In this document: positions 6,864 to 36,594 of the stretch, piece after piece | Layout: each line of letters begins with the position of its first letter | Numbering within the stretch: position 1 is the first letter of the stretch | From: Kangiellaceae bacterium | GTDB taxonomy: Bacteria; Pseudomonadota; Gammaproteobacteria; Enterobacterales; Kangiellaceae | DNA: 64,000 bases | Reading direction: 5' to 3' | Assembly (NCBI GenBank): GCA_013373015.1 | Contig: JABXIQ010000018.1 | Coordinates: 62,001-126,000 of the forward strand | The notes under the pieces: model-generated | Databases searched by the model: none | Told to the model about the DNA's origin: nothing | What the model saw: the letters and a program-made list of their open reading frames with translations, nothing else | Made by a program: the position numbers and the translations under genes

Positions 6864-6877
6864 TTGATTATGATCAA
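6864..6877. promoter_or_regulatory. FNR/DNR box, decarboxylase-DUF1244 divergent region
   Basis: TTGATTATGATCAA is a perfect match to the FNR/ANR/DNR consensus TTGAT-N4-ATCAA. It lies in the 129-bp space between the decarboxylase (minus) and DUF1244 (plus). The distance of about 58 bp to the decarboxylase ATG fits activation of that gene. Confidence 0.75.
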
Positions 6878-33556: not shown

Positions 33557-33570
33557 TTGTTCTAGATCAA
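33557..33570. promoter_or_regulatory. FNR/DNR-like box upstream of nrdD
   Basis: TTGTTCTAGATCAA has one mismatch to TTGAT-N4-ATCAA and is about 60 bp before the nrdD ATG at 33631. It fits anaerobic induction of class III ribonucleotide reductase. Confidence 0.62.
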
Positions 33571-33630: not shown

Positions 33631-35658
33631 ATGCAAAAAGTATACAAGGCTACTTGTCCAAAAAAAGTCATTAAAAGAGATTTAACCGAAGTTAATTTCG
33701 ATAAAGATAAGATTTATCAGGCGATTCTAAAGGCAGGGCTTGCCTCGGGTGAATTTTCTGAAGAAATGGCTCAGACCATTACCAAGCAAGTTGTCGATGT
33801 CTTGTCTTTCCGCTTTGAAAATTTAACTACTCCAACCGTCGAACAAATTCAAGATATTGTTGAGCATTGTCTTGCGCAAAACCAATATTTTGCTACAGCA
33901 AAGTCGTATATTTTATATCGTGAAAAACATAAACAGATCCGTGAAAACCAAAAGACTTTATTAGACGTCACTCAGTCTATGGAAGAATACCTTTCACAAG
34001 CCGACTGGCGGGTTAAAGCCAATGCTAATCAAGGCTATTCTCTGGGTGGTTTGATCTTAAATGTTTCAGGTAAAGTTGTTGCTAATTATTGGCTCAATCA
34101 TATTTACAATCCTGACATAGGTCAGGCTCATAGAAATGCTGATCTGCATATTCATGATTTGGACATGTTGGCAGGTTATTGCGCGGGTTGGTCATTAAGA
34201 ACTTTGTTACACGAAGGGTTCAATGGTGTACCAGGCAAGGTTGAGTCTGGCGCTCCGAAACACCTATCCAGCGCAGTAGGGCAGATGGTTAACTTTTTGG
34301 GAACTTTGCAAAATGAATGGGCTGGGGCTCAAGCCTTTAGTTCTTTTGATACTTACCTTGCGCCATTTATCCGCAAAGATAACTTATCTTATGAGCAGGT
34401 TAAACAGTCAATCCAAGAGTTCATTTATAATTTGAATGTACCATCACGCTGGGGCACACAAACACCTTTCACCAATATCACTTTGGACTGGGTTTGCCCC
34501 GAAGATTTGCAAGAGCAAATCCCCATTATTGCGGGTGAGGAAATGCCATTTTCTTATGGCGAGCTCCAGAAAGAAATGGACATGATCAACAAAGCCTATA
34601 TTGAGGTCATGACGGCGGGTGACGCGAAGGACAGAGTATTTACCTTCCCAATTCCGACCTACAACATAACCCCCGAGTTTGATTGGCAGTCAGAGAACGC
34701 CGATCGCTTATTTGAAATGACGGCGAAATATGGTTTACCTTACTTCCAGAACTTTGTGAACTCTGAATTATCACCGAATATGATTCGCTCAATGTGTTGT
34801 CGTTTACAACTGGATTTGCGTGAATTATTAAAACGGGGCAATGGTTTGTTTGGTTCAGCAGAACAAACAGGCTCGTTGGGGGTGGTTACGATCAACTGCG
34901 CTCGCTTAGGTTACCTTTATAAAAACAATAAGCGAGCGTTGCTTGATCGTCTTGAGCAACTGATGGATATGGCCAAAGAGTCATTGGAGCAAAAACGTAA
35001 AGTCATTCAACACTATATTGATAATGGATTATTCCCCTATACCAAGCGTTATTTAGGGACTTTACGCAACCATTTTTCCACCATTGGCGTTAATGGCATC
35101 AATGAAATGGTACGCAACTATACAGATGATCAAGCAGACCTATCCACGCCTGAAGGTCACGTCTTTGCAGTGGAGTTGTTAGACTTTATCCGCGAAAAGA
35201 TGGTGCAATACCAAGAAGAAACTGGACATCTCTATAATCTTGAAGCAACCCCGGCAGAGGGTACTACTTACCGCTTTGCCAAAGAAGATAAGAAACGTTT
35301 TAACGAAATTATCCAAGCGGGTTACGAAGACGCACCTTATTATACCAATTCGTCACAGCTGCCAGTAGGTCATACCGACGATCCCTTTGAAGCGCTTGAG
35401 CTACAAGATGAGTTACAGTCTAAATATACTGGCGGTACTGTTTTGCACTTGTATATGGGCGAAAGAATATCAAGTAGCGAAGCTTGTAAAAAGCTAGTGA
35501 AAAATACCTTAACGAATTTTAGATTACCTTATATCACTATCACACCAACATTTTCTATCTGCCCAAATCACGGTTATCTGGCAGGCGAACATGAATATTG
35601 CCCACAGTGTGATGAAGAAATCTTGTTACAAAAACAGAAACAATGCTGCAACGCATAG
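33631..35658 (+). CDS. nrdD: Anaerobic ribonucleoside-triphosphate reductase large chain, lacking the glycyl-radical tail
   Basis: A 675-aa class III reductase. An ATP-cone domain is at the N-terminus (VIKRDLTEVNFDKDKIYQAI through YREKHKQIRE, about residues 12-110). The catalytic barrel includes LAGYCAGWSLRTLLHEG and VTINCARLGYLY with active-site cysteines. The C-terminus ends in a zinc-ribbon-like ICPNHGYL...CPQCD and QKQCCNA. The usual RVxGY glycyl-radical segment is absent: it is encoded as a separate ORF 10 nt downstream. The enzyme makes dNTPs without oxygen. Confidence 0.93.
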   Translation: MQKVYKATCPKKVIKRDLTEVNFDKDKIYQAILKAGLASGEFSEEMAQTITKQVVDVLSFRFENLTTPTVEQIQDIVEHCLAQNQYFATAKSYILYREKHKQIRENQKTLLDVTQSMEEYLSQADWRVKANANQGYSLGGLILNVSGKVVANYWLNHIYNPDIGQAHRNADLHIHDLDMLAGYCAGWSLRTLLHEGFNGVPGKVESGAPKHLSSAVGQMVNFLGTLQNEWAGAQAFSSFDTYLAPFIRKDNLSYEQVKQSIQEFIYNLNVPSRWGTQTPFTNITLDWVCPEDLQEQIPIIAGEEMPFSYGELQKEMDMINKAYIEVMTAGDAKDRVFTFPIPTYNITPEFDWQSENADRLFEMTAKYGLPYFQNFVNSELSPNMIRSMCCRLQLDLRELLKRGNGLFGSAEQTGSLGVVTINCARLGYLYKNNKRALLDRLEQLMDMAKESLEQKRKVIQHYIDNGLFPYTKRYLGTLRNHFSTIGVNGINEMVRNYTDDQADLSTPEGHVFAVELLDFIREKMVQYQEETGHLYNLEATPAEGTTYRFAKEDKKRFNEIIQAGYEDAPYYTNSSQLPVGHTDDPFEALELQDELQSKYTGGTVLHLYMGERISSSEACKKLVKNTLTNFRLPYITITPTFSICPNHGYLAGEHEYCPQCDEEILLQKQKQCCNA

Positions 35659-35668
35659 GAGAAGCACA

Positions 35669-35815
35669 ATGAAAATACAACTTAATGATAACGAACGTCA
35701 AAAGTGTGAAGTATGGACGAGAGTGATGGGCTATCATCGTCCGGTCTCAGCTTTCAATAAAGGTAAGCAATCAGAACATGCTGAGCGCTTACATTTTAAA
35801 GAAAAAGCTGCTTAA
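35669..35815 (+). CDS. Separate glycyl-radical domain of anaerobic ribonucleotide reductase
   Basis: A 48-aa protein with its own start (ATG 35669) and the Shine-Dalgarno AGGAG overlapping the nrdD stop. It contains CEVWTRVMGYHRPVSAFNKG, the classic C-terminal glycyl-radical motif of NrdD (RVxGYxRPVxxxNxGKQ), with the radical glycine at G21. In most NrdD proteins this block is the last part of the large chain. The sequence between the two ORFs is TAGGAGAAGCACA, with a stop, a ribosome site and a new start, so a simple frameshift cannot join them. It probably binds NrdD and is activated by NrdG, much as YfiD/GrcA restores pyruvate formate-lyase. Confidence 0.88.
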   Translation: MKIQLNDNERQKCEVWTRVMGYHRPVSAFNKGKQSEHAERLHFKEKAA

Positions 35816-35874: not shown

Positions 35875-36594
35875 ATGATAAACATGAATGAATTTAAACA
35901 TAATGAGTTAAGAATAGGGGGGCTCACTCCTTTAACTACTATTGATTATCCTGATCATCTATCCTGTGTTTTATATTGCCAAGGCTGCTCTTGGCGCTGC
36001 CGATATTGTCATAACCCAGAACTAATAGATTGCAAAAAAGAAAGTGCCATTAGCTGGCAGCAAGCTCTTGAATTACTCTCTAAGCGCAAAGGACTATTGG
36101 ATGCCGTTGTTTTTAGCGGTGGCGAGCCATTACTACAAAACTCGCTTGAAGCAAGCATGCGTACGGTCAAAGACATGGGCTTTAAAATAGGTTTGCATAC
36201 ATCAGGCTCAGTTCCAAAACGGTTCCAACAAGTATTACAGCTAGTCGATTGGGTTGGCTTTGATATTAAAGGGCTACCTAGAATGTCTGATAGCTTTATA
36301 CAGGTTGAAGGAGCTTCACAAAAAAACTGGCAAAGCTTGGATATCCTACTGCAATCCAATACGGATTATGAATGTCGAACTACAGTTCATTGGGACCTGA
36401 TCAATCCACAACAATTGATAGCGCTTGCAGAGAAACTATCGAGTAAAGGTGTACACTCATATAACGTGCAAATTGCCAATAATCATAAAGTGCTAGATGA
36501 AAGTTTAGCCGATAATCTGATCGAGCCTGAAGCTGCATTAGCTACTAAGATGCAATTGCAAAGTATGTTTAAAAGCTTTAACTGGGTAGCTTAA
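35875..36594 (+). CDS. nrdG: Anaerobic ribonucleotide reductase activating protein, radical SAM
   Basis: A 239-aa radical SAM activase. The cluster motif C-x3-C-x2-C is C38-SWR-C42-RY-C45 in CQGCSWRCRYCHNPELI. VVFSGGEPLLQ is the GGE motif, and GLHTSGSVP follows. It would abstract hydrogen from the radical glycine (G21 of the small upstream protein) using SAM. The start is ATG 35875 or 35884 (MNEFKHNEL), and neither has a strong ribosome site. It follows nrdD and the small glycyl-radical gene. Confidence 0.9.
   Translation: MINMNEFKHNELRIGGLTPLTTIDYPDHLSCVLYCQGCSWRCRYCHNPELIDCKKESAISWQQALELLSKRKGLLDAVVFSGGEPLLQNSLEASMRTVKDMGFKIGLHTSGSVPKRFQQVLQLVDWVGFDIKGLPRMSDSFIQVEGASQKNWQSLDILLQSNTDYECRTTVHWDLINPQQLIALAEKLSSKGVHSYNVQIANNHKVLDESLADNLIEPEAALATKMQLQSMFKSFNWVA

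Follow-up and report, generated by a model that had tools for sequence, protein, structure and literature searches.

A class III ribonucleotide reductase encoded in two parts, with the glycyl-radical domain as a separate small protein in proteobacteria and alone on viral contigs

The window, i.e., the whole stretch of 64,000 nt that was analysed, carries an nrdD gene, a short open reading frame and an nrdG gene in succession on the + strand. The nrdD gene (33631..35658) encodes a large chain of 675 aa that contains an ATP-cone, a barrel and a zinc ribbon and is without a glycyl-radical block. In profile searches this chain matches NF006126 at 1158 bits and, in Pfam, also PF03477; its residues 165-662 align to residues 104-610 of T. 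maritima NrdD (4coi). The finger-loop motif is SMCCR, an MCCR variant (residues 387-391; 34789..34803). At the end of the chain lies the zinc ribbon CPNH...CPQC (residues 644-660; 35560..35610), three cysteine columns of which are invariant in an alignment of 40 rows. The gene closes with the stop codon TAG at 35656-35658. The C-terminus itself, QCCNA (35641-35655), carries a CC pair.

Overlapping the nrdD stop is a Shine-Dalgarno sequence, AGGAG (35657..35661), 7 bases 5′ of an ATG at 35669. This ATG lies 10 bases past the nrdD stop, in another reading frame, and opens an ORF of 48 aa (35669..35815) that contains RVMGYHRPVSAFNKGKQ. The nrdG gene follows at 35875..36594 and encodes a radical-SAM activase of the NrdG2 type; its product matches TIGR02495 with 205.8 bits (cut-off 131.15), so the dedicated activase of a class III enzyme is present. 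The first-pass annotation had described an NrdD that ends after the zinc ribbon, a short ORF with its own ribosome site and start that takes over the whole glycyl-radical block, and an nrdG gene behind it. The letters of the window and the profile matches confirm this description.

The large chain matches positions 2-529 of PF13597 (NRDD) with 600 bits, and the small ORF matches positions 530-562 with 36.7 bits; both matches exceed the curated cut-off (26.2 bits). Thus two proteins tile one domain, and the full-length NRDD domain of a class III enzyme is present in the two chains jointly. The barrel polypeptide has no radical glycine, as the TAG comes before the block, which stands on the separate ORF in the other frame. 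An additional internal radical motif, which would have spoken against a split, is likewise not seen in the large chain, whose NRDD match stops at position 529. The source genome, a 62-contig assembly, contains exactly two NRDD matches, those of NrdD and of the small ORF, and a search of the whole assembly with the NRDD profile found no further NrdD. For the small ORF, NRDD is also the only Pfam family listed at E values up to 10, with filters that drop most weak matches; under these same settings no match to the PFL-type glycine radical domain was found.

The family profile puts G21 of the small chain (codon 35729-35731) on Gly621 of 4coi, which is treated as the radical glycine of T. maritima NrdD in the available part of PMC4493059. 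The radical-domain profile aligns to 4coi residues 616-644 with the motif ungapped, although the database match is weak (E 0.045). G21 is invariant in 25 of 25 aligned small chains and is part of an RVxGY-type loop. Structure prediction with AF2 was applied to a single read-through chain of a Pseudomonas locus. With a broader alignment the mean pLDDT is 86.9, with about 80-90 in the radical part and about 57 in the joining stretch; a first model from a narrower alignment had a radical part of low confidence. The closest solved folds to the read-through model are class III ribonucleotide reductases.

The locus sits in a nitrate-respiration region. In profile searches narG, narH and narI are above their cut-offs, and the same region contains modA, a NarK-like transporter (under the cut-off) and a MoaA-like ORF that was named by eye. 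A motif scan predicts an FNR-like site, TTGTTCTAGATCAA, with one mismatch to TTGATN4ATCAA, 60 bases 5′ of nrdD (33557..33570, + strand). Between window positions 6864 and 61479 there are 22 FNR-like sites with at most one mismatch, compared with 6.1 expected in shuffles. The nitrate-respiration genes and the FNR-like sites fit a facultative anaerobe that would often meet oxygen.

Related genomes were scanned for the same arrangement. The window's genus is represented by 20 genomes among 61 related ones; nine of these have NrdD, and all nine are split. NrdD was not found in the remaining 11 of the 20, one of which is only 55% complete, and the operon thus looks accessory in the genus. The split is also present in one genome of the same family (G020) and in one of another family (G049). 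In a class sample of 369 genomes NF006126 was above its cut-off in 33, which by our own tally comprise 28 split, four fused (G280, G386, G114, G073) and one cut short (G395); three of the 28 (G194, G348, G371) were judged from coordinates alone. In a phylum sample of 398 genomes NrdD was found in 56. By our own tally again, the split is of the window kind in 13 of these and of a second kind in two; the other 41, most of which belong to the E. coli kind, were called fused because the match reaches the profile end.

A scan of named organisms confirmed at least 567 relatives, and the best 80 of these were retained. They include Kangiella, Pseudomonas, Stutzerimonas, Marinobacter, Nitrincola, Chromatiaceae, SUP05/Thioglobus, Acidovorax, Magnetospirillum and Holosporaceae. 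Since the retained loci are the best 80 of at least 567, they are biased towards split members, and the class and phylum samples give the less biased counts. Matches were also found on plasmids, for example in records of Cupriavidus, Bradyrhizobium and Paracoccus; among the plasmid loci fetched, those of Cupriavidus, Thiothrix and Paracoccus are split and that of Actinomyces is fused. The small protein is already named nrdD by NCBI annotation in plasmid records, and no mention of a split was found in the records that show it. A search of NrdD homologues for the downstream short ORF had been proposed in the first-pass annotation; it yields the same split in 106 further distinct loci. Judged by gene arrangement, the split is widespread in proteobacteria and not unique to the window.

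In all, 125 radical-domain places were examined, of which 112 are split, 10 fused (nine loci, with L100 counted twice) and three without a nearby NrdD. Removal of five same-genome repeats leaves 107 distinct split loci. Their nrdD stops are TGA in 71, TAA in 23 and TAG in 13. Gaps between the two ORFs have a median of 29 bases (range -49 to 298), with a remainder modulo 3 of 0 in 20 loci, 1 in 45 and 2 in 42; the in-frame case is the rarest. The small ORF starts with ATG in 103 loci and is preceded by an SD-like motif in 104, counts that are somewhat inflated because starts were chosen by a scoring rule that favours SD and ATG, and single starts may be wrong. In seven loci of the window's genus (L016, L017, L019, L020, L022, L024, L025) an ATG lies on the nrdD stop, as TGATG or TAATG, and the radical-domain frame has a conserved N-terminal MF[ED]F... 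that is absent from the window and from L023.

Selection on the small chain was assessed with ten chains, i.e., that of the window, eight of its genus and one of its family. Over 45 pairs the core codons show 677 synonymous and 113 non-synonymous differences, a pattern of purifying selection on the small chain. In the tails of the large chain CC or CxC/CxxC is found in 18 of the 107 split loci, with CC in 16 including the window. A C-terminal cysteine pair acting as a class I/II-like redox arm was therefore rejected as a general feature.

In two genomes the radical domain is not next to NrdD. In G768 the NrdD and a pair formed by the radical domain and nrdG are about 9 kb apart on one contig, with several genes between, and in G429 (Holosporaceae) separate contigs carry them. 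Both genomes were confirmed to have NrdG next to the radical domain, and as each has a single radical domain, this domain must act in trans. A second, orphan copy of the radical domain is present in Magnetospirillum fulvum and in Bacterium BMS3Bbin13. The contig of the BMS3Bbin13 copy carries RecT, RecE and SSB genes and is thus phage-like; the M. fulvum copy (L120:5001-7142) is directly 5′ of an RNR large-subunit gene (phrog_84). Of the 28 genomes in the class sample that are split, one has a second radical domain, and spare copies therefore seem seldom kept by hosts.

Fused forms were placed in a tree of 110 NrdDs, which was built by a quick method and has several long branches. In this tree the fused L100, L065 and L101 nest among split members, and the fused L032 is at the unresolved base of the split clade. 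In L100, an alphaproteobacterial MAG, NrdD is fused to two nearly identical tandem radical domains. With several fused members inside the split clade, the split has sometimes been lost; the tree is consistent with a single early split followed by re-fusions, repeated splits being an alternative. Another NrdD type likewise stops after the zinc ribbon in G751, G818 and G038 (loci L392, L393 and L394), at the same domain boundary as the window type, and is followed by a short ORF with RRITGYLVGTLDRFNNAKRAEEKDRVKH (RRVTGYLVGTIDRF... in G038) and then nrdG. In G751 and G038 this type was identified as NF005497, with an NrdG of type TIGR02491. By these profile assignments the NF005497 type of NrdD has split independently.

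The window type of radical domain is also encoded, by the same profile, on 176 IMG/VR contigs, and 80 of these were fetched (L146-L225). No NrdD is present in the fetched stretches (0 of 80), and 48 of the 80 records, searched whole at up to 211,777 bases, have one NRDD match each, at the radical end, and again no NrdD; viral records may be fragments, and 38 of 82 fetched places are flanked by 3 kb or more on each side. No NrdG was found near the radical domain in the 80 fetched stretches. The viral chains retain the radical core, glycine included, and this core is up to 94% identical to that of the closest cellular chains, as for L149 and a SUP05-cluster chain. The copy in L181 lies in a phage replication module with thymidylate synthase; the neighbours in L146 are portal, head and tape-measure genes, in L195 a tape-measure gene and in L174 a tail-fibre gene. 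Thymidylate synthase was rejected as a regular viral neighbour, with ThyA matching only its locus of origin, and so were RNR large-subunit genes, two queries of which match none of the 80 loci. The window chain (1.3e-9) and the four viral chains tested (2.3e-7 to 4.4e-11) match phrog_4132, a family of unknown function; these matches fall in positions 113-162 of the 179 in the profile and leave its N-terminal part uncovered.

As a control, E. coli-type radical ends in viruses were found fused in 63 of 63. A second viral type, SRVVGYxRPVxQWN (L340-L385 and the ANMV-1 virus KP703175.1, L386:2686-3120), lies outside any NrdD ORF in 45 of 54 copies by the motif SRVVGYxRP; these viral records may also be fragments, and of the 45 copies five are near a contig end and one (L384) is on the contig of L146. 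The protein of the ANMV-1 virus is a stand-alone chain of 144 aa that is already annotated as anaerobic RNR, and some second-type chains have, as it does, their own CxxC...CxxC stretch before the radical block. In INPHARED phages no strong match to a stand-alone copy of the window type was found. For the second type, two weak matches other than the ANMV-1 virus are fused forms, as MT835493.1 has an 802-aa ORF over the match and cr111_1 a gene of 2.15 kb.

The order of domains across the two chains is the same as in the single-chain class III enzymes of T. maritima (4coi, 4u3e), T4 and E. coli, which likewise have the zinc ribbon, the finger loop, the radical glycine (Gly621) and NrdG as a partner. 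In those enzymes, however, the glycyl-radical block is on the main chain. The window NrdD has the MCCR motif in common with the NrdDh4 group of PMC4493059, a paper whose available part says nothing of a radical domain that is absent from NrdDh4 or placed on another chain. For this group a Phe is given at the finger-loop tip, in an alignment that the paper calls uncertain. In our alignment the F in GLFGS adjoins the aligned finger-loop tip, and Leu, not Phe, aligns to the T. maritima Ile. A ribonucleotide reductase in two adjacent ORFs is also seen in NrdJa/NrdJb of Pseudomonas aeruginosa (PMC4009431, PMC9669993, available parts), but that enzyme is of class II, uses adenosylcobalamin, is without a glycyl radical and has other C-terminal domains on NrdJb. 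Phage nrdD genes can likewise be in pieces, mostly through interruption by introns, inteins or endonuclease genes (PMC3653736, available part); here, in contrast, the boundary is a fixed domain boundary and radical domains stand alone without NrdD. The accessible text of PMC3019208, PMC4860495, PMC9669993, PMC9531940, PMC4493059, PMC2795772, PMC3653736, PMC4390871, PMC4009431 and PMC8683613 makes no mention of a separate class III radical domain. No description of a split class III NrdD was found in the literature examined, and subscription papers may hold one.

Closest in design are YfiD/GrcA of E. coli and Y06I of T4, small glycyl-radical proteins that stand apart from the large catalytic chain they complement and that, as here, occur in host and in phage. 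These proteins are the spare-part precedent for pyruvate formate-lyase (PFL), the sole enzyme for which spare parts have been validated, with others held possible (Andorfer et al. 2021, PMC8683613, available part). PFL retains its own radical domain, and the enzyme is repaired after cleavage, whereas the large chain described here never carries one.

At the gene level the separate genes, the completeness of the parts, their conservation, their separability and their carriage by phages are demonstrated. The two chains almost certainly form a two-chain class III ribonucleotide reductase, and the mechanism outlined here is, taken as a whole, very probable. NrdD would supply the ATP-cone, the catalytic barrel, the finger-loop cysteines and the zinc ribbon, and the 48-aa chain may dock its glycine loop into the NrdD barrel. 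NrdG would activate the small chain by forming its glycyl radical, which would then be passed to the finger-loop cysteine of NrdD.

In glycyl-radical enzymes, the radical glycine is the site at which oxygen cleaves the chain. Such damage would therefore cost only the 5-kDa chain, which could be remade and swapped on an intact NrdD. Whether exchange after damage is the selected benefit of the split we hold to be evenly poised. A GrcA-like replacement had been suggested in the first-pass annotation, and it gains support from the unlinked copies, the phage copies without NrdD and the Y06I precedent in T4. In an anaerobic infection the phage small chain may serve as a fresh radical domain for the host NrdD and NrdG; that it acts on host NrdD is about an even bet. 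Our most far-reaching interpretation, to which we give a probability of roughly 0.45, treats the small chain as an exchangeable radical cartridge. It would be the first spare-part system outside PFL, fixed in a large proteobacterial NrdD clade and re-evolved in another NrdD type; many phages carry it by itself and would plug it into the host NrdD and NrdG, with the second viral type possibly plugging into oxygen-cut single-chain NrdD.

An error of sequencing or assembly, or a decaying pseudogene in this strain, might be suspected from a 62-contig source, but 106 further loci of differing DNA are split in the same way, and purifying selection acts on the small chain; this explanation is negligible and was rejected, and the stop is not an error of the reads as far as equally split relatives can tell. 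The two ORFs could also yield a single protein through programmed frameshift, stop read-through, an intron or an intein, and the small ORF is indeed in frame with nrdD in 20 of the 107 loci. All three frames are seen, however, with variable stops and with SD and ATG kept, which rules out recoding into one protein as a general mechanism; just 10 bases separate the two ORFs of the window, and the chains of G429 and G768 cannot be joined. Recoding was thus also rejected, and is exceedingly improbable. The claim of an organised split and not a random frameshift stands, with nine of nine in the genus split, the SD kept, frames and stops variable and the small chain under selection.

The small chain may instead be a permanent subunit that arose by a neutral split, with no exchange after oxygen damage and with phage copies that serve otherwise. 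The fused L100, L101 and L065 within the split members and the rarity of extra host copies (1/28) agree with this, and class II NrdJa/NrdJb suggests that splitting alone is tolerable (PMC4009431, available part). The stand-alone viral copies (80/80), the second viral type and the PFL precedent fit exchange better, and two NrdD types have split at one boundary; we regard a permanent subunit as tenable, if on balance doubtful. The viral copies could also be decoys, which would either poison the NrdD of the host or sequester its NrdG. The absence of NrdG beside them in the fetched stretches implies reliance on host partners and is decoy-like. Phages need dNTPs, however, and a replication module that includes thymidylate synthase contains one of the copies; the retained glycine and core, at up to 94% identity to cellular chains, also speak against decoys, and Y06I of T4 is a helper (PMC8683613, available part). 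Decoys are therefore considered quite unlikely.

The locus bears on several points. With natural two-chain enzymes, the spare-part question for ribonucleotide reductase becomes directly testable; Stutzerimonas stutzeri (L070) is a culturable bacterium that has one. The NrdD of about 675 aa from Pseudomonas species and relatives would, if cloned alone, be without a radical site. The findings also suggest what an unannotated family of phage proteins (phrog_4132) may do and how phages may keep DNA synthesis going in hosts that are anoxic or live with fluctuating oxygen.
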